From the NCBI GenBank assembly GCA_013306675.1, contig JABLUY010000160.1, forward strand, positions 1-64,000: DNA of 64,000 bases. Reading direction: 5' to 3'. Source of the stretch: Thraustochytrium sp. TN22. Lineage: Eukaryota > Sar > Bigyra > Thraustochytrida > Thraustochytriidae. This document shows positions 6,609 to 47,925 of this stretch, in pieces. Position 1 is the first letter of the stretch, and every line of letters starts with the position of its first letter. Below the pieces are notes generated by a model. That model was not told the DNA's origin. It did no database searches and saw nothing but the letters and a program-made list of their open reading frames with translations. The position numbers and the translations under genes were made by a program.

Positions 6609-9287
6609 ATGGCGGGCCGCTGGACGGCGGCGGCGGCGGCCGTGGTGTGGGCGCTGTGCACGGCGTGTCTGGCAGGCGTGCTGCTGGGCGTCCGTGAGCT
6701 CCTTGTGGAGCTGCCCGCGCGCCCCAATGCCTGTACCATGACGTACATGCAGCCCAACTTCTACCCGGTGCCCATGGTGAACCGGTCCACGCTCGCCTAC
6801 AAATACCGCCTGCTGCAATACGCGCATGGCCCGCTCAGCGATGAGGACCGCGCGCTGCGCTCGGACCGCGTACTTGTCTTCGTGCCGGGCAGCGCGGGCT
6901 CCAGCGGCCAGGTGCGATCCATCGGCCGCGAGGTGATGGATGCGCTCTTGGCGAGTGGCCAGTCTCGCACTGCCATTGCGATCTACACGCTCGACTTTGC
7001 CGACGAGCCATCCGCGCTCAGCGGCCTCTTCATTCAGGACCAGACCGCCTTCCTCAAGGACGCGCTTCGCGTCGTTGGCGAGCGTCATGCGCAGCCGCGC
7101 GTGCTCCTCTTTGCGCACTCCATGGGAGGCATTGTGGCTCGCGAGGCAATTCTCGCCCTGGACCAGGGCGACTTGCTCTCAGTCGCCTCTGAGGACGTGC
7201 TGATGGACGAGCGAGAGGCGAACGCTAGCGATGCGCTGGGGCCGGAGGCAGTGCAGACGGAAGCGGAGGTCGAGGAGGCGCCGCAGGCCGAAGAGGAGCT
7301 CAAGGAGGAGGAAGCGCCTTTGGCGCCTGAGATTCCCCAGGCCGAAGAGATGTCTCTGGGTTCTCAGATGCCTGGGACCTCTGAGGCAGCTCCGGCAAAA
7401 CAAGTGGAGCCTGCAGTGAACATTCGAGCGCTCCTCTCCATGAGCACCCCGCATGCGGCCCCGGTAGTGGGTGCCGACGTCCTCCTCGCGTACATTTACC
7501 ACGCGCTAGGCGCCCACGAGGACAGCGAGCGTGTGTACGTGTCCGTGGCGGGCGGGTACCGTGACGTGCTTGTACCGAGTGCGCTAGCGCAACTGGACAA
7601 GCGGCAGTACCCGCAGAGCGCTTCAGCACTGACGAGTCTCCTGCCGGGCGTGGAGAAGTCTACGGACCACCTCGCGATCCTGTGGTGCAACGAGCTGGTG
7701 AAGCGTCTCGCCAAGCACGTGGTCGATATTTTGGACGGCGATGAAACGACCGTGCTGGAGTCGCCGGGCTTCAAGGGCAAGAAAATCCCTCGCGCCGGGT
7801 ATTCACGCGCCGAGGCGGAGGCGCTCAGGTCGGAGTTCTCAAAGGGCGGGCTGATCGAGTTTTTTACGGACGAGATGGCGCGCAAGCACTTGCTGCAGGT
7901 GCTGCCGGGCATGTTCGCAAGCATGCTGAGTCTGGTCCTGGTCGCGGCGGGCGCCTCACCGTTGGAGTTCGCAGGCTACGCGGCCGCGCTCGCGACGGCC
8001 TCGGCGCTCTTGGTCGAGGCACCAAGCGGGACAGGCTGGGCGGTGATTGGCGTGGCGGCCGCGAGTGGGCTCTCCTTGGCCAGCGTGCTACTGGTTGCTG
8101 GGCAGATTCTCTTTCGCTGGGTCGGCCGCTTCGCGGGGTGGGCTCCGCACGCTCTTCTCGGCGCGCTGCTGGCCGGCAAGGTGTCGTGGGGCGACGCTGG
8201 CCTGCCGTCTGGAGAGGATTGGCTTGCGGCCGCCTTTCTCGTGCTGCTAGGCTACACGGTGGTTCTCGCGGTGGCGAACCTGGGCGCGGCCCGGTCGCTG
8301 CGCAACTTTGAGGCTGGCTTGAGCGCACAGCACTATCAGGTGCTCTTCGCGCTCGCGTATGCGCCAGCACTCGTTGTGGGCGTTGGACCTGCGATGTACT
8401 GCGCGCTGGTTCTGCTGCGTCCCTCACTAACGTTCAGCGATCACTTCCCCCTGGCTGCGGAGCGGCGCAGCCGCGGCACCATCCACGGCGTGCTGGACAG
8501 CGAGCTGCCGGAGACGATCGTGCCGGGGGACCTTCGCGCCGACGCGACGCTGCAAGACAGCGGGCGTTGGCTGCTTTTGTGGAGCGCCGCCCTGCTGGTC
8601 CCGGTGGCGCTGCACCTGCATGGGCTGCTCTACTACCCGCAGTTCGCGGCGCCAGAGAAGGTTCTCGACTCGCAATATCAGTACGTGCGGGTGAAGCCGC
8701 CACCCAAGAAGGAGCGCGAGGGCCCGGCGCCGGAGGATTTTGACTTCGGGCCTTCGGCGCCCAAGACCAAGTCGCGTCGGCCCAAGGGTGGCGCGGCGGC
8801 CGGCGAGCGCGCCATTGTGACAGCTGAGGAGCGAGCGAACGGCGCTATCGAGTTCGACGACTCTGATTACATCGCCGAGAGTTCCTTTCGCATCGTGCGG
8901 CTTCCTGGGGGCGACACCGTGCAGGTGGACGACCTGGGAAGCGAGCCCCGCGTCGTGAACTACGCCGAGGACGCCGTCCCGCTCATTGAGGAGCCCACCG
9001 CCGCAGACAGCGGCGCTGGCGGCCTGGTGTGCGAGCTGCACCAGCGCGTGCGATGCGCCGTCAAGGCCTTTCCCGATTTGCTCTGGCTGCGGGCGCTTTT
9101 GGGCGGAGCCGCGATGATGGCGTTGATTCTCGCGCCGGCGCACCTGTACGTGCTTCCGGCTCTGGCTGCCATCGTCGCCACCGCGTGCGTGCTCACGCGG
9201 TGGGAGACCCAGGGCGCGGAGCGTTTTGTTCGCAAGCGCGTGCAGCGCAGGCCAGGAGAGGCGGCGTCAGGTTCAAGCCCAAACTAG
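6609..9287 (+). CDS. PGAP1: GPI inositol-deacylase (PGAP1 / Bst1p)
   Basis: ER membrane lipase that removes the acyl chain from the inositol of GPI anchors, allowing anchored proteins to leave the ER. The ATG chosen gives MAGRWTAAAAAVVW, a clean signal anchor (about residues 5-27), followed by the family start of the luminal domain, ACTMTYMQPNFYPV. The frame is open further upstream but only into low-complexity sequence. The hydrolase core has VFVPGSAGSSGQVRS and the nucleophile elbow LLFAHSMGG, with Ser171 as likely nucleophile. STPHAAPVVGAD follows an acidic, proline-rich insert of about 65 residues that looks lineage specific. Several hydrophobic segments follow from about residue 430, as expected for the multi-pass C-terminal half. 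At 892 residues it is near the family length. Confidence 0.92.
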   Translation: MAGRWTAAAAAVVWALCTACLAGVLLGVRELLVELPARPNACTMTYMQPNFYPVPMVNRSTLAYKYRLLQYAHGPLSDEDRALRSDRVLVFVPGSAGSSGQVRSIGREVMDALLASGQSRTAIAIYTLDFADEPSALSGLFIQDQTAFLKDALRVVGERHAQPRVLLFAHSMGGIVAREAILALDQGDLLSVASEDVLMDEREANASDALGPEAVQTEAEVEEAPQAEEELKEEEAPLAPEIPQAEEMSLGSQMPGTSEAAPAKQVEPAVNIRALLSMSTPHAAPVVGADVLLAYIYHALGAHEDSERVYVSVAGGYRDVLVPSALAQLDKRQYPQSASALTSLLPGVEKSTDHLAILWCNELVKRLAKHVVDILDGDETTVLESPGFKGKKIPRAGYSRAEAEALRSEFSKGGLIEFFTDEMARKHLLQVLPGMFASMLSLVLVAAGASPLEFAGYAAALATASALLVEAPSGTGWAVIGVAAASGLSLASVLLVAGQILFRWVGRFAGWAPHALLGALLAGKVSWGDAGLPSGEDWLAAAFLVLLGYTVVLAVANLGAARSLRNFEAGLSAQHYQVLFALAYAPALVVGVGPAMYCALVLLRPSLTFSDHFPLAAERRSRGTIHGVLDSELPETIVPGDLRADATLQDSGRWLLLWSAALLVPVALHLHGLLYYPQFAAPEKVLDSQYQYVRVKPPPKKEREGPAPEDFDFGPSAPKTKSRRPKGGAAAGERAIVTAEERANGAIEFDDSDYIAESSFRIVRLPGGDTVQVDDLGSEPRVVNYAEDAVPLIEEPTAADSGAGGLVCELHQRVRCAVKAFPDLLWLRALLGGAAMMALILAPAHLYVLPALAAIVATACVLTRWETQGAERFVRKRVQRRPGEAASGSSPN

Positions 9288-9325: not shown

Positions 9326-9493
9326 ATGACGGATGACGAGAGAGAGCAACAGGAGGAAAGCAACATGCATGAGGAAAGCAACATGCATGACGAAGGCAAC
9401 ATGCATGAGGAAATCAACACGCATGACGAAAAACCTACCCCAGGAGGCCAAGTCTTGGGGAGGGGGAAAGTGCGAGCAGCGAGGAGCAAGTGA
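9326..9493 (+). repeat. 18-bp tandem repeat downstream of PGAP1, in a small ORF
   Basis: Four copies of an 18-bp unit related to GAGGAAAGCAACATGCAT occupy about 9353-9424, starting 65 bp after the PGAP1 stop. Because 18 is a multiple of three, a 55-residue ATG frame (9326-9493) reads through them as EESNMH-like hexapeptides. It is most simply a minisatellite in the PGAP1 3' UTR; whether the small frame is translated cannot be judged. Confidence 0.7.
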
Positions 9494-17170: not shown

Positions 17171-18787
17171 ATGGGGCGCAAGACGCGGGCGCGCACGGGC
17201 AAGGCCAAGGCCAAGGCCAAGGCGCCCCTTGGCGAGCGCGCCAAGAGCACCAGCTCGGGCGAGGTAAGAGACCCTCGCGTGGAGGAGGAGACCGCAACGG
17301 GTGGGACGCGACGAGACGCAGGGACACGACGAGACGCGGGGACGCGACGAGACGCAAGGTCGCTCCCGCGCAAGGAAGACGGCGCGTGGAGCCGCGCGCT
17401 GCGCGGCAAGTACGAGGCGCTCGGCAAGGAATGGTGGTGGCTCTTTGATGACGCCGTCGCCCAGATCGCCGTCCGGCTCCGACGCGACAACTTTGTCGTG
17501 CTGGACGGCTTCCTGGGACGCAGCCTGGCGCGCGAACTTCACGGTGAGCTGCGTCGCGCGTACGAGGCTGGCAAGCTGCCAGAGACGCTGCACTCCATGA
17601 TCGGCTGCCCGCGCATGGAGCCTGGCGCACTGGCCGGCGGCCAGGCGGGAAACAGCCTGACTTACCGCATGAACGCGGTTCGCGGCGACCACGTCGCTTG
17701 GTTTGACGGCAAGGAGGCAGCCTGCCAGTGGCGGGTCCTGCCCATGTACCTGCAGCGCATGGACACCCTCGTATCGGAGCTGGCGGGCATGCTGTCGGAG
17801 CTCGCAGGAACAGACGCGCTGCGTTCCAACGCCATGGCCACCTGCTACCCGGGGGACGGCGCCCACTACGTGCGCCACTGCGACAACACGTCGGCCGTGC
17901 GCAATGGCCGTCGTCTCACGGCGCTCTTTTACGCCAACCCGACGTGGGCACGCGGCGATGGCGGCGAGCTTCGCGTTTTCAAGGCGCAGCCACCCGATGA
18001 GGACGAGGCGAGCCGCGTCTACGAGGCTGTCGCGGACATCGAGCCGGTCCTTGACCGCGCGCTGCTCTTCTTCGCGGACGAGCGCTGCCCGCACGAGGTC
18101 CTCCCTGCCGTGCAGAAGCGATTTGCCATTACCGTCTGGTACTTTGACAAGGAAGAGAAGCTTGCTGCGAATACTGCGCGCAACGACCCGAGTCGAGTCG
18201 AAGCTGAAGCAGAGCGCACACGCCGCGAGATGGAGAAGTTCCAGCAGCGGTACGGTGAGGCTCCGGAGATCATGCATGGGCAAGCCGACGTGCCTCACAC
18301 GAAGACACCATCCGTCCCAGCGCATCCTGACGCAGTCGCGCATGAGCAAGCCAACGAGAGTGACCAAGGTACCTTGAGTGAGCAACCGCCTGTGCACGTT
18401 CAGGTCACGAATCGGGAGACCAGCGCAATTCGTACAGAGACGCCAGCTGGTGGTGCTGTAGAAGCCGAGGCAGACGGAGGTAAGGCTGTGGAACTTGAGC
18501 AGCCCGAGCCGGCCGAGCGCGCTGTACAAGAAGTGCCATCAGCGCAAAGCACATCCGAGCCAGTCAGAGCTGTAGAATCCGAGGCAGACGGAGATAAGGC
18601 TGTGAAACTTGAGCAGCCCGAGCCGGCCGAGCGCGCTGTACAAGAAGTGCCGTCAACGCAAAGCACATCCGAGCCAGTCAGACCAAAGGCTGCGCAGCTT
18701 GAGCACGCGTCACAAGAAGTGCATTTACTGTTAGCGCAAAGCGCCGTGGTAGCATCGAGTCCACCATCATTTTGGGAGCTCGACTGA
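17171..18787 (+). CDS. EGLN/PHD-type prolyl 4-hydroxylase (2-oxoglutarate dioxygenase)
   Basis: Fe(II)/2-oxoglutarate dioxygenase close to the HIF prolyl hydroxylases, 538 residues. ATCYPGDGAHYVRHCDNTS and RCPHEVLPAVQKRFAITVWYFD match EGLN1 almost along their length. They supply iron ligands His236, Asp238 and His308 and the 2-oxoglutarate arginine Arg317, nine residues after the last ligand as in human PHD2. Substrates in protists include Skp1 and ribosomal proteins; which applies here cannot be read from sequence. A basic leader is followed by a TRRDAG repeat from a 15-bp minisatellite (about 17303-17357). A GTAAGA at 17264 could open a 111-bp in-frame intron ending at 17374, but the frame is open without it. 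The C-terminal 190 residues are disordered and contain two 38-residue tandem repeats. Confidence 0.9.
   Translation: MGRKTRARTGKAKAKAKAPLGERAKSTSSGEVRDPRVEEETATGGTRRDAGTRRDAGTRRDARSLPRKEDGAWSRALRGKYEALGKEWWWLFDDAVAQIAVRLRRDNFVVLDGFLGRSLARELHGELRRAYEAGKLPETLHSMIGCPRMEPGALAGGQAGNSLTYRMNAVRGDHVAWFDGKEAACQWRVLPMYLQRMDTLVSELAGMLSELAGTDALRSNAMATCYPGDGAHYVRHCDNTSAVRNGRRLTALFYANPTWARGDGGELRVFKAQPPDEDEASRVYEAVADIEPVLDRALLFFADERCPHEVLPAVQKRFAITVWYFDKEEKLAANTARNDPSRVEAEAERTRREMEKFQQRYGEAPEIMHGQADVPHTKTPSVPAHPDAVAHEQANESDQGTLSEQPPVHVQVTNRETSAIRTETPAGGAVEAEADGGKAVELEQPEPAERAVQEVPSAQSTSEPVRAVESEADGDKAVKLEQPEPAERAVQEVPSTQSTSEPVRPKAAQLEHASQEVHLLLAQSAVVASSPPSFWELD
18455..18682 (+). repeat. Two tandem 114-bp coding repeats in the EGLN-like gene
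   Basis: Two adjacent 114-bp units beginning GCTGTAGAA at 18455 and 18569 encode nearly identical 38-residue peptides (AVE(A/S)EADG...QEVPS(A/T)QSTSEPVR). Only a few bases differ, so the duplication looks recent and keeps the frame. Confidence 0.9.
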
Positions 18788-21833: not shown

Positions 21834-22841
21834 ATGCTGGGCGCGGCCGGGCGCGCGGCGGCGCGCGGCGCGGCGGCGCGCGGCGCGGAGGCGCGCGGGC
21901 CTGCGCGCGCGCTGTCGTCGATGGCGAGCCTGGGCGGGCAGCCGTCGGCGGCGGAGGTGCGCAAGATGCGCTGCACCGAGATGGTCATGGACAGGCGGCA
22001 GCCGGAGGTGGGGGACGCGGAGCGCGAGCTGCCGCTGCTGTCGCGCGGGTGGCGCGCGCGCAAGCGGTTCCAGTTCGGGTCCATGACCAAGTCGTTCCGC
22101 GCCAAGAGCCTGGTGGCGCGCACCGACAAGCAGTACAACGAGCGCGGCTTCCTCGCGGACGCGCAGCTCATCTACCAGGAGTTCAACGCGGCGCTGGCGA
22201 CGGGCGCGTTTCGGCAGATGCTGGACGTCTGTACGGAGAATCTCACGGACAAGCTGCAGCAGGGCATGAACTACGATGCGGTGCTGGGCTCGAGCAAGCT
22301 CTCGCGCGTGGCGGCCTTTCTGGAGCCGCCCGAACTGCTGCAGGCGCGCACCGTGAGCATGCACCAGCAGGCGCGCGACCTGGTCTTTGCGCAGTTCACC
22401 GTGCGCTTCGTGACGGAGAACCGCCGCGTGCGCCCTGAGGACCTTGGCCACGGCGTGGCGAGCGCGGCCGGGGGGCGCGGCCAGCGCCACGGCAAGGCCG
22501 CCAAGTCCGTACAGGCGGAGATGTCGCGCCGCTACCAGCAGAACCTGCTGCGCCAGCAGGGCTCGCGCGTCGAGCGCGAGCCGGGTCGGTGGATGGTGGC
22601 CTTTGACGGCTCCAAGGGCGAGTACTACTATAACTCGGTCACGCGCCAAGCGCGTTGGGACCGGCCCCCGAACTTTCTCATCACGCCGGCCTACACGCTC
22701 TGCGCCAATGGCACGCTAGGTGTCACCGGCACGCTGCTGCACGAGGACGCGGCCACCGGCGTCGACCAGGTTCAGGTTGATGTCATCTTCGAGCGCCCGC
22801 TCTTCAACCTGGGCACGCCATGGCGCGTTGCCCTCTTCTAA
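21834..22841 (+). CDS. Tim44/mL45-like mitochondrial protein with WW-like insert
   Basis: A 335-residue protein starting MLGAAGRAAARGAAARG, a strong matrix-targeting presequence. The body (about residues 60-215 and 285-335) resembles the Tim44-like domain of mitoribosomal mL45/Mba1, which tethers the ribosome to the inner membrane and Oxa1: QFGSMTKSFRAKSLVARTDK, LLQARTVSMHQQARDLVFAQFTVRF and a final strand set. Inserted before the last strands is a WW-like module (about residues 250-281) with GRWMVAFDGSKGEYYYNS and TRQARWDRPPNF, where the two Trp and the Pro of a WW domain are recognisable. A WW module here is unusual. The coding tail is duplicated several times downstream. Confidence 0.78.
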   Translation: MLGAAGRAAARGAAARGAEARGPARALSSMASLGGQPSAAEVRKMRCTEMVMDRRQPEVGDAERELPLLSRGWRARKRFQFGSMTKSFRAKSLVARTDKQYNERGFLADAQLIYQEFNAALATGAFRQMLDVCTENLTDKLQQGMNYDAVLGSSKLSRVAAFLEPPELLQARTVSMHQQARDLVFAQFTVRFVTENRRVRPEDLGHGVASAAGGRGQRHGKAAKSVQAEMSRRYQQNLLRQQGSRVEREPGRWMVAFDGSKGEYYYNSVTRQARWDRPPNFLITPAYTLCANGTLGVTGTLLHEDAATGVDQVQVDVIFERPLFNLGTPWRVALF

Positions 22842-23069
22842 CGAACTAAGCTAAAATGAAAGAATCAAACAAACAAAGAAACAAGGATGCCATCTTCGAG
22901 CGCCCGCTCTTCAACCTGGGCACAAACAAACAAAGAAACAAGCATGTCATCTTCCAGCGCCCGCTCTTCGACCTGGGCACGCCATGGCGCGTTGCCCTCT
23001 TCCAACGAACTAAGCTAAAGGATGCCATCTTCGAGCGCCCGCTCTTCGACCTGGGCACGCCATGGCGCG
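22779..23069 (+). repeat. Tandem copies of the mL45-like gene tail; 88-residue derived ORF
   Basis: Four units related to GATGTCATCTTCGAGCGC start at 22779 (inside the gene, ending in its stop), 22886, 22944 and 23021. Units 1 and 3 extend through GCCATGGCGCGTTGCCCTC to the post-stop AACGAACTAAGCTAAA. Unit 2 is cut short and joined by an AAACAAACAAAGAAACAAG linker that also occurs before it. Downstream of the true stop a new ATG frame (22856-23122, 88 codons, different phase) stays open and translates the gene's C-terminal peptide (IFERPLFNLGTPWR) three times. Whether it is expressed is unknown. Confidence 0.88.
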
Positions 23070-43937: not shown

Positions 43938-46900
43938 ATGGCCGAGGTGGAGGCGCGCGCGGATAGCCCGGACGCCAGCAACGAGGTGGCTCAACAAGAA
44001 GCGCCAATGGCACGCACGGCGTCTGGGCTTGGGCAAGTCCAGGACCCAAGCGAAGGACCTTTACCGAGCCCAGAGGATATTGCCGCCATGGTCACAGAAC
44101 AGCGGCGCACCATCGTGAGCCAGCAAAAGCTGCTCAAGCAGGTGGAGGCGATACAGTTGCGCCTGGAGAGGCTGACGAACGTGGGTGGTAGCGGCGTTAT
44201 TGCAGGCACTAGGCCGTCAATGCCGCTGCAACGAAGGGTGAGCTTGCGGAGGCTGTCGGGTGGGAGACCGCTAAATCGACGCAGCAACGCAGGCCCGGGC
44301 TTGATGCGCTTCAACACACACCGGGTGCTTCGCACAAGGAGTGACACGAGCGATGCTGACACGGAAAACAGCCCGCGCGACGCAAACCTGGCCATCACGA
44401 ACAACCTGGAGGCGTGCGAGGAGCGACGCCGGTCCATCTTCGGCATGAGCCCGGGCACATTGGTCAATCCGATGGACGAGGAGGCCCGGCTGCAACAACA
44501 CCAGTGGCGCGTGACCTCAAGTCTTGCCAAGGTGGCCCCGGACGAGCACTCGACGGACTCGGTGGCCGTGGACGGAGCATGCAGCGGGCGCGTCCGCAAG
44601 CGGCAGCCGTCGGTTCGCGGCAAGCATTTCGAGGGCCTCTCGCGGCTGCGCGTGCAGATCGAGAGCGGCTACCGCATGGTGGTCACGGACGAGGAAGAAA
44701 CGGACGAAGACGATCTGCGAACGAAGGAGTTGCGCGAGGAGGCCGAAGCGCTCGCCATCCATGAGTACGAGGAGACCAAGAGCGAGCGGTCGGCGGGCCG
44801 GGGTACGGCGCTCGCAGCAGGCATTTCGACGGATTCCACCGGGACGTTGAACGCACCACTGGGCGAGAAGGGATCGAGCATCGACATGACCCCTGCGGAG
44901 ACTCCTATGATGGATCACACGCCGTGCACGCTGACGGAGCCGGACGAGCGAAGGGGGTCGCGCGCACGGCGGCGTGAAGCGGGCAGGGGCGCCAGCGGCA
45001 AGTACCGGTCCGGCGTCGGGGCGGTGGGCGGCGGCAGCAGCGGCCAACGCAAGCGCAAGGGGTCTGCGTGGACGCGCGGGCTGGCTGCCGTACTCATGCG
45101 CGTGCCGGTGGTGCATCCGGAGAGCGAGTTCCGTGCCAGGTGGAACCTCTTCGTGCTGGTGATGTTGCTGTGGTTCAGCTTCACGATCCCGTTCTCGATC
45201 TGCTTCGGAATCGCGCCGTCTGGGGTGTGGCGCATTGTGGAGCTCTTCTTCGACGTGGCCTTCGGCATCGATATCGCACTCAATTTTGTGACTGGGTACT
45301 ACTCGCAGAGGCAGTCGGTGCAACTGATCGTGATGAACCGGCGCATGATTGTGCGCAACTACGTGACGACCTGGCTGTTGGTGGACCTGGTGGCCATCAC
45401 GCCGTTTGAGCAGGTGGCGACGCTGGCGACGACGGGTGAGCTAAGCAGCGTGGAGGGCACGCGGTCGGTGGCAAGCCTGTCGAAGCTGATCCGCCTGGTG
45501 AAGTTGACGCGGCTGCTGCGGCTCGTCGGCCTGTACAGGTACTTTCGGTACTGGTCGGAGCGCCTCAAGCCGGGCATGCTGCGGCTTGGTTCGTCGATTG
45601 TGGTGGGCCTGCTGGTGATTCACCTGCTGGCATGCTTCTTCTACTACCTGTCGGACCTCGATCCGACGCGCGTGGACACCTGGTCGGACGTCTATGGCGT
45701 GCGTCACGATGACAGCGTGTATCCCAAGTACGTGGTGAGCCTGTATTGGTCGATCACCACCATGACGACGGTGGGCTACGGCGACATTCTACCGCAGAAT
45801 GAGGGCGAGGTGCTCTACGTGATTATGGCCATGCTGGTGTCCTGCTCCATGTTCGCCTACCTGGTGGGCAACGTGGCGTCCATGGTGAGCGCCATTGACT
45901 CCACGCAGGTGCTGTACAAGGAGAAGATGGACTGGCTCAAAGAGTACTGCTCGCAGCAGGACCTGCCGGCGGAGCTGCAGGCGCGCATCCGCGCTTTCTA
46001 CAGCCACTGCTGGAAGGACCTCAAGAGCTTCCCGTTCTCGGAGCATGCCATTCTGGACGACCTGAGCCCGGCGCTGCGGCGCGAGGTGGTGCTCTTTTTG
46101 AATCGCGACATGGTGGCCAAGGTGCCATTCTTCGAGGGCCAGGACGACAACTTCATCTGCCGGCTCATCTTGACCATGTCCTCCGAGGTGTGCGCGCCAC
46201 TGGACATGATCATCCGCCAGGGCGAGGTTGGCAAGGCCATGTACTTTGTGCGGCGCGGCCTTGTCGAGGTCTGCAATGCGGACGTCAGCGTCATCTACAC
46301 GACGCTCTCTGACGGCTGCTATTTTGGCGAGGTCTCGCTGCTGGTCGGCGGCCGCCGCACGGCCTCGGTACGCGCCATCTTCCACTGCAGCCTCTTTCGC
46401 CTCGAGCAGGAGGACCTGGACGAGCTCCTGCTCGACTACCCGGAAACGCTACAAAAGATCGTGCAGCTCGCCGCCACGAGTCGCTACCACCTCACGGACG
46501 CTGAGAAGGAGTCGCTCGAGCGACGCTTCGAGGCCTTTGCCGACGTCCTCAGCCCTGACGTCATGGAGGAGATCAAGCACTCGGGCGGCCTGCTGCGCCA
46601 GGAATCGTTCAATATCTACAGCTCCGTCCTCGTGGACGAGGACGAAGAGGACGCGGACGCGGACGCCGACGCCGATGATGCCAGCGAGCAGGCCAGCCGC
46701 AGTTTCGATAACGCATCGCTGCCGGACCTCGCCGGCAAGACCTCCGAGGAGCGCGCCACAATTGTGGGCGGGGCCCAGGCCGTGTCGCCCTCGCACAGAG
46801 CGCTCGGGAGCCGCGTGCCTTCACGCAGCATCTCCACGGTCTCCTCAGTCTCGAGCAGCAGCACCGCCAGGTCCCGCACTGCCGTCTCCACGCATATCCC

Positions 46901-47096
46901 GCTCGGTACGGCCGTCTTGGAGCGCGCGCGCACCGTACGGACCATCGCCGGCGGCAGCCCTACTGCCGCCGCCGCCATCAGCAGGGCCTCGCCTCAAATC
47001 AGCGCCGACATTATCGAGGAGGACGAGAATGAAGAGGAGGATGCTTGCAGCGGGGTCCACGAGTCCGCGGCCAAGGACTCGGCGGCCTCTGCATGA
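43938..47096 (+). CDS. Voltage-gated K+ channel with cyclic-nucleotide-binding domain
   Basis: A 1,052-residue channel of the EAG/HCN/CNG superfamily. A disordered cytosolic N-terminus (about 390 residues, with a short coiled coil near 55-80) precedes six transmembrane segments (about 398-665). S4 is LSKLIRLVKLTRLLRLV with regularly spaced basic residues, so voltage sensing is likely. The pore carries the K+-selective filter TVGYGD (residues 611-616). After a C-linker (MDWLKEYCSQQDLPAELQAR) comes a CNBD at about 728-840 with the phosphate-binding cassette YFGEVSLLVGGRRTASVRA, including the Arg that contacts cyclic nucleotide. The acidic Ser-rich tail ends with DENEEEDACSGVHESAAKDS. That tail is amplified downstream. 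Cyclic-nucleotide-tuned K+ flux at the plasma or ciliary membrane is a reasonable inference. Confidence 0.93.
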   Translation: MAEVEARADSPDASNEVAQQEAPMARTASGLGQVQDPSEGPLPSPEDIAAMVTEQRRTIVSQQKLLKQVEAIQLRLERLTNVGGSGVIAGTRPSMPLQRRVSLRRLSGGRPLNRRSNAGPGLMRFNTHRVLRTRSDTSDADTENSPRDANLAITNNLEACEERRRSIFGMSPGTLVNPMDEEARLQQHQWRVTSSLAKVAPDEHSTDSVAVDGACSGRVRKRQPSVRGKHFEGLSRLRVQIESGYRMVVTDEEETDEDDLRTKELREEAEALAIHEYEETKSERSAGRGTALAAGISTDSTGTLNAPLGEKGSSIDMTPAETPMMDHTPCTLTEPDERRGSRARRREAGRGASGKYRSGVGAVGGGSSGQRKRKGSAWTRGLAAVLMRVPVVHPESEFRARWNLFVLVMLLWFSFTIPFSICFGIAPSGVWRIVELFFDVAFGIDIALNFVTGYYSQRQSVQLIVMNRRMIVRNYVTTWLLVDLVAITPFEQVATLATTGELSSVEGTRSVASLSKLIRLVKLTRLLRLVGLYRYFRYWSERLKPGMLRLGSSIVVGLLVIHLLACFFYYLSDLDPTRVDTWSDVYGVRHDDSVYPKYVVSLYWSITTMTTVGYGDILPQNEGEVLYVIMAMLVSCSMFAYLVGNVASMVSAIDSTQVLYKEKMDWLKEYCSQQDLPAELQARIRAFYSHCWKDLKSFPFSEHAILDDLSPALRREVVLFLNRDMVAKVPFFEGQDDNFICRLILTMSSEVCAPLDMIIRQGEVGKAMYFVRRGLVEVCNADVSVIYTTLSDGCYFGEVSLLVGGRRTASVRAIFHCSLFRLEQEDLDELLLDYPETLQKIVQLAATSRYHLTDAEKESLERRFEAFADVLSPDVMEEIKHSGGLLRQESFNIYSSVLVDEDEEDADADADADDASEQASRSFDNASLPDLAGKTSEERATIVGGAQAVSPSHRALGSRVPSRSISTVSSVSSSSTARSRTAVSTHIPLGTAVLERARTVRTIAGGSPTAAAAISRASPQISADIIEEDENEEEDACSGVHESAAKDSAASA

Positions 47097-47640
47097 CGAA
47101 ATTGATGGAGCGCGTGGAGCGCGCGCGCCCCGTACAGACCATCGCCGGCAGCAGCCCTATCAGTACGGCCTCGCCTCAAGTCAGAGCCGACGAGGAGGAC
47201 GAGAACGAAGAGGAGGATGCCGGCAGCGTGGTCCATGAGTCCGCGGCCAAGGACTCGGCCTTTGCATGACGAGATTGATGGAGCGCACGGAGCGCGCGCG
47301 CACCGTACAGACCATCGCCGGCAGCAGCCCTATCAGTACGGCCTCACCTCAAGTCAGAGCCGACGAGGAGGACGAGAATGAAGAGGAGGATGCCGGCAGC
47401 GTGCTCCATGAGTCCGCGGCCAAGGACTCGGCCTCTGCATGACGAGATTGATGGAGCGCGCGGAGCGCGCGCGCACCGCATGGACCATCGCCGGTCGTAG
47501 CGCTACCGCCGCCATCAGCAGTGCCTCACCTCAAATTAGGGTCGACATTATCGAGGAGGACGAGAATGAAGAGGGATGCCGGCAGCGGGGTCCATGAGTC
47601 CGCGGCCCAGGACTCGGCTTCTGCATGACGAGATTGAATC
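46917..47640 (+). repeat. Four tandem copies of the channel 3' end with ATGA-linked mini-ORFs
   Basis: Unit 1 is the last part of the channel CDS. Three more copies follow with stop-region starts at 47091, 47264, 47437 and 47623, giving periods of 173, 173 and 186 bp. In units 2-4 a frame begins at ATGACGA(A/G)ATTGATGGAGC, its ATG overlapping the preceding TGA as ATGA: 47093-47269 (58 aa), 47266-47442 (58 aa) and 47439-47597 (52 aa). The first two products start MT(K/R)LMER and end in HESAAKDS plus three residues, repeating the channel tail; the last ends in another frame. Expression is unknown. Confidence 0.9.
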
Positions 47641-47925
47641 GCGCTCTTCACAGCGCCGGAAGTGCTCCCATCCACTCGCTCGCTGCAGACACGATCCCAA
47701 ACACAGGTTAATCTCAAAAGTAAAGAGCATCGTCCAGCCGCAGCAGCACCCTGCGTGTCATGATAAATCCCGTGCATTTTCGCTTGGCCGGCCACAGAGC
47801 TCCCTTTCCGAGCTCGATCAGAGATCCACTGTCAGTCCCAAACACAGGTAGGAAACATTTCAAGATCCACAGCAAGCCACGCGCCACGATTAAAACCGCA
47901 CGTTCTCGCTTGGCCGCGACCATGG
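47641..47925 (+). repeat. Diverged 140-bp tandem duplication
   Basis: Two copies share CCCAAACACAGGT (starting at 47696 and 47836) and, near their ends, a TCGCTTGGCCG block preceded by similar A-rich sequence. The offset is 140 bp. The copies are clearly more diverged than the channel-tail repeats directly upstream. Confidence 0.65.

Follow-up and report, generated by a model that had tools for sequence, protein, structure and literature searches.

ATGA-linked small frames beyond the end of a CNG/HCN-like channel gene in Thraustochytrium sp. TN22, most likely a by-product of tandem duplication

Among the described systems closest to the locus considered here is the coupled termination-reinitiation of viruses. 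According to PMC3542737, reinitiation at AUGA in victoriviruses and some caliciviruses requires upstream sequence, which in caliciviruses and influenza B includes UGGGA; in the TURBS-type definition given there, the UGGGA is complementary to 18S rRNA h26 and precedes the stop by about 40-90 nt. The stop/start overlap is found at ATGA 47093, 47266 and 47439 of a 64,000-bp stretch of Thraustochytrium sp. TN22 DNA (contig JABLUY010000160.1, positions 1 to 64,000; hereafter the window), where the coding sequence of a cation channel is followed by small frames, each opening on the stop of the one before. No comparable case appeared among the literature matches listed, as judged by their titles and the beginnings of their abstracts. 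We conclude that the series very probably reflects an ordinary tandem duplication across the end of the coding sequence, and that the ATGA-linked frames are by-products of copying, most likely not extra genes.

The channel gene and its repeated end

The window has a GC content of 67%, and the genome assembly comprises 37.9 Mb in 453 contigs. This size fits the 30-60 Mb given as typical for thraustochytrid genomes, and the window's composition is not close to that of Aurantiochytrium sp. TWZ-97 (45% GC), both comparisons being drawn from PMC12258536. Eight of the ten other long window ORFs that were scanned have a Pfam match, each within one ORF (class II tRNA synthetase, FHA, PGAP1, 2OG-Fe(II) oxygenase, CFAP91, COG7, SAPS and PCIF1). 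The channel gene and the units of the array are as follows.

43938..47096, + strand: cation channel with a cyclic-nucleotide-binding domain; uninterrupted ORF of 1052 aa, ending GCA TGA (ORF list, Pfam, structure and protein searches)
46917..47105, + strand: unit 1, made up of the C-terminal tail of the channel itself (LERARTV...SAASA), the stop and nine 3'-flank bases, CGAAATTGA (sequence)
47093..47269, + strand: extra unit 2, a 58-aa frame opening on the channel stop, ATGA (ORF list, alignment)
47266..47442, + strand: extra unit 3, a 58-aa frame opening on the unit 2 stop (ORF list, alignment)
47439..47597, + strand: extra unit 4, a frame opening on the unit 3 stop, shortened to 52 aa after a 2-nt deletion (ORF list, alignment)
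47598..47637, + strand: remainder of unit 4 outside the 52-aa frame; the fourth GCATGACGAGATTGA closes it, and the unique 3' flank, ATCGCGCTC..., adjoins directly (sequence)

The channel ORF has an Ion_trans domain (PF00520, at 402-656, 1.5e-25) followed by a C-terminal cNMP_binding domain (PF00027, at 756-832, 1.1e-15), which is the arrangement that defines the CNG/HCN-like class. Among solved structures HCN1 is the closest (HCN1 chains, E 9.9e-71), and the best protein relative is a channel of the thraustochytrid Hondaea, annotated as HCN1-like (P0001; 54% identity, 90% of the query). Near the C-terminus, at 46893-46925, the motif H(I/V)PLGxAVLER is common to the Hondaea homologue and a second relative, P0002, and the rest of the tail is variable. 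In both of these relatives the protein ends shortly past the motif, without the acidic tail of the present channel; motif and acidic tail are both absent from the more distant homologues P0003 and P0004. Its role in these channels may be that of a short binding motif. The repeated tail is absent from all four homologues compared (P0001-P0004). The same genome holds a large family of related channels: 49 places match the channel at E <= 0.001, including the channel itself and three array units, and C401, C417 and C445 each carry several channel-like matches inside open frames of 2468-2823 codons.

The array consists of the last ~180 bp of the channel gene, together with the TGA and the first nine bases of the 3' flank, followed by three further head-to-tail copies. 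ATGA lies at 47093-47096 (the channel stop), 47266-47269, 47439-47442 and 47625-47628, with stop-to-stop spacings of 173, 173 and 186, so the three additional repeats with these periods reported in the initial annotation are borne out, as are its 58-, 58- and 52-aa frames, each starting on the prior stop. Tandem Repeats Finder (TRF) assigned the array a period of 173, 3.5 copies and 88% matches, and its score of 888 was the top of the 115 rows for the window. Thus, TRF and the alignment of the units both reveal the adjacent, highly similar head-to-tail copies that define a tandem array. The 2-nt deletion in unit 4 moves its stop to 47595-47597, and the chain stops at the third extra copy: because the deletion shifts the unit 4 frame, the ATGA at 47625 falls off the unit 4 stop and opens a frame of only 28 aa. 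Restoring the two deleted bases would bring the unit 4 period to 188, a value of the form 3n-1, as is 173.

A DNA search of the organism's own genome (37.9 Mb, 453 contigs) placed the array at at least one site, the one described here. No array of similar period was present at 29 other channel-matching loci (L003-L031), which overlap in part and extend 1.5 kb to each side of the match, such that some gene ends may fall outside them. A 15-base pattern spanning the stop junction, searched with up to one mismatch, was found at 12 sites, comprising four in the array, one other exact site (C40, L032) and seven carrying a single mismatch; with the pattern reversed as a control, three sites were found. 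L032 was considered as a second array, has ~21 bp in common with the first (E 5e-4) and was treated as a chance match.

Origin of the array and of the ATGA linkage

The boundaries of the units record how the array was built. On its left edge, unit 1 runs on into the channel's own sequence (GTCTTGGAGCGCGCG). All three extra units have one identical junction, GCATGACGARATTGATGGAGCGC, together with a GGAGCGC block that is missing from unit 1. Past the last unit, CGAGATTGA-ATCGCG is the original 3' flank, with CGAGATTGA continuing into the unique sequence ATCGCGCTC. The repeat itself cannot be a matter of chance. A GCC block and ATTATC are present in units 1 and 4 and missing from units 2 and 3, and core differences, which range from 5 to 21 over the pairs, are fewest between units 2 and 3 (5 of 150 positions), unit 4 differing from the others at 17-21. 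Since units 2 and 3 both lack these blocks and have the fewest core differences, they appear to be the youngest pair, and this order of copying would make them the most recent products. The same differences bear on whether the array could be an assembly artefact, tandem repeats being places where assembly errors are common. The units differ by substitutions and indels, with the 5-21 core differences noted for each pair, which spurious multiplication of a single unit would not produce; we therefore regard an artefact as exceedingly improbable.

Ordinary duplication accounts for these features in a few steps and offers the simplest history. A tandem duplication with breakpoints inside the C-terminal tail and nine bases past the stop would have placed the tail and its stop a second time, downstream of the gene. 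The length of this first junction would have happened to set the ATG in frame with the copied peptide, an alignment that later copies would have inherited, and further rounds of copying, the latest for units 2 and 3, would have brought the extra copies to three. Because the channel ends GCATGA, every copy contains ATGA; because the three extra units share one junction, the ATGA linkage arose once and was then copied; and because the channel still ends at 47096, the copies sit in its 3' untranslated region or beyond.

How often such a duplication would produce the linkage was estimated by simulating all duplications of 100-250 bp that span the channel stop and include at least 60 nt of coding sequence, conditional on the GCATGA end. 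The same ATGA-linked frame, starting on ATGA and running to the next copy of the stop, was obtained in 3760 of 15561 cases (24%). In the window, 176 of 721 TGA triplets, about a quarter, have an A before them. The extra frames owe their openness to the coding DNA from which they were copied, and open frames of this size are common in any event: in 26% of trials, a random frame with the dinucleotide content of the array stays open over 58 codons, and ATG ORFs of 54 aa (+ strand) and of 45, 44 and 53 aa (- strand) occur in the non-peptide frames of the extra copies themselves. Thus, the ATGA chain is explicable by chance and needs no functional explanation; it is ordinary because the linkage is one event, arises in 24% of simulated duplications and involves open frames of a common size.

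Other duplications occur nearby. An in-frame 114-bp duplication at 18455-18682 provides two copies of the acidic C-terminal tail of the 2OG-Fe(II) oxygenase ORF (ORF end 18787); the copies differ at 5 sites, 4 of which are first or second codon positions. Four other arrays with a period of at least 40 and a score of at least 150 were found in the DNA examined (213,590 bases, overlaps included). Given the oxygenase event and these four arrays, duplications on this scale are not rare here. Two further repeats lie just beyond ORF ends: a 57-bp tandem duplication (22866-22980, 93% matches), 25 bases past the end of a putative 335-aa ORF (21834-22841), and an 18-bp unit (GAGGAAAGCAACATGCAT) present 4.4 times at 9353-9431, from 66 bases past the end of the PGAP1-domain ORF (6609-9287).

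Coding capacity of the extra units

If the frames were maintained for their peptides, their differences should carry the mark of selection. Between units 2 and 3 there are 8 differences in 174 positions, of which 3, 3 and 2 fall on first, second and third codon positions, respectively. The change is non-synonymous in five of the seven codons affected, where neutrality predicts 5.54 (P of <=5 = 0.47), a comparison of low power given the 8 differences. An omega of 0.1 yields at least five non-synonymous codons in 0.7% of runs (P = 0.007), which disfavors strong constraint; an omega of 0.2 is marginally disfavored (P = 0.063), and values of 0.3-0.5 are compatible with the differences. There is thus no detectable constraint on the two 58-aa frames, at low power, and the comparison of synonymous with non-synonymous changes that the initial annotation had proposed fits neutrality within that limit. 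The open state of the frames is weak evidence because simulated frames mostly survive this number of changes, remaining open in 81-86% of cases after 8 random changes and in 62% after 21. Units 1 and 4 show an excess of third-position differences (10 of 17, P = 0.022), albeit in one of six pairs and uncorrected, the other five giving P >= 0.22. Length differences between units are multiples of three at three of four places (by eye), two of these in triplet runs. Neither observation points clearly to the extra frames, because unit 1 is the real channel tail, which may itself explain the third-position excess, and because of the triplet runs. A protein search requiring shared exact five-residue words, made with the 58-aa peptide of unit 3, returned no candidate homologue.

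These results weigh on the possibility that ribosomes ending the channel restart in series at the overlapping ATG codons, releasing one to three free acidic tail peptides from a cellular mRNA. Both 58-aa frames are intact, and the moderate constraint that the data allow would suit such a process, but constraint between units 2 and 3 was not detected (again at low power) and the frame of unit 4 is broken. The sole TGGGA within 43938-47640 lies at 44261, about 2.8 kb upstream of the channel stop, so that UGGGA is not found about 40-90 nt before the stop, as TURBS-type signals have it; victorivirus-type signals are not defined by UGGGA. Start codons are preferred with a purine at -3 and G at +4. 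The channel's own start has A and G at these positions, whereas the ATGA starts have T and A. The copied piece also omits most of H(I/V)PLGxAVLER, the motif common to the Hondaea homologue and P0002, because the duplication begins at the motif's end. The AUGA geometry is one also used by victoriviruses and some caliciviruses (PMC3542737), but reinitiation after ORFs for cellular proteins is, in the review PMC5972666, presumed to be very rare. On balance we consider serial reinitiation very unlikely, and the copies are probably not translated to any useful degree. The initial annotation had left three readings side by side. Of these, neutral slippage is favored by the one-off linkage, the lack of detected constraint at low power, the broken last frame and the lack of a nearby UGGGA, the one established reinitiation motif sought, whereas a polycistronic tail and a source of free peptides appear, at the level of sequence, to find no support beyond the ATGA geometry itself.

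The copies could instead contribute to the channel if the intervening stops were spliced out, joining the units in frame and giving a channel with a repeated C-terminal tail. Eighteen GT...AG pairs of 30-250 nt would place unit 1 in the unit 2 frame, and one frame-restoring pair spans 83 nt (47055-47137) and ends CCGTACAG. However, no GTRAG, the usual splice donor, occurs in 46800-47700, that consensus being a general one and not derived from the introns of this genome; the 18 pairs begin GTCCAC, GTCCGC or GTACGG. The acceptor of the 83-nt pair is changed in unit 4 (CATGG), the channel is a single ORF in a window where eight of the ten other scanned ORFs likewise keep their Pfam domains within one long ORF, and the homologues P0001-P0004 have no repeated tail. 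Splicing of this kind is accordingly held to be highly improbable.

Extension of the channel into the copies through readthrough or frameshifting at its stop is less credible still, to the point of being negligible. The channel stop is TGA followed by C, which is sometimes a leaky context, but the channel frame contains another TGA only two codons further on (TGA CGA AAT TGA, 47094-47105), so readthrough alone cannot reach the copies, and no slippery heptamer was seen by eye before the stop (C TCT GCA TGA).

Relation to known systems

Tandem duplication across the end of the channel coding sequence remains the preferred account, and it carries a lesson for annotation: a duplication that includes a stop codon can mimic a chain of overlapping genes without selection for one. 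Small ORFs also call for caution in GC-rich genomes, since chance alone often yields frames of 45-58 codons there. Were the frames of the array truly translated, they would be a remarkable instance of serial reinitiation on a cellular mRNA, each unit setting the frame back by one base.

The array resembles viral coupled termination-reinitiation (calicivirus VP2, influenza B BM2, victorivirus Pol) in its stop/start overlap, which is AUGA or UAAUG in those systems. It differs in that it has no UGGGA near its stops, a weak start context and no detected constraint, belongs to a cellular gene, and has downstream frames that are copies of the upstream tail. Among viral contigs, 65 stretches fitted the pattern and none was confirmed by tblastn as a channel relative. 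With the downstream ORFs (dORFs) of 3' untranslated regions, the array has in common small ATG frames right after a main coding sequence; its frames differ in being copies of the end of that sequence, and their translation is only putative.

Within the same window, the in-frame tail duplication of the 2OG-Fe(II) oxygenase (18455-18682) is likewise a 100-bp-scale event in an acidic C-terminal tail. The oxygenase duplication precedes its stop and lengthens the protein, whereas the channel duplication includes the stop and does not. The channel array is most like a minisatellite-like duplication in which a coding sequence is repeated at its end, with head-to-tail copies, periods of 173-186 bp, copy-specific indels, an inner pair of units that are most alike, and one locus found. 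It differs from the usual duplication of that kind in that a stop codon with an A before it lies within the copied piece, and it is because of this that the ATGA-linked series arises by coincidence.
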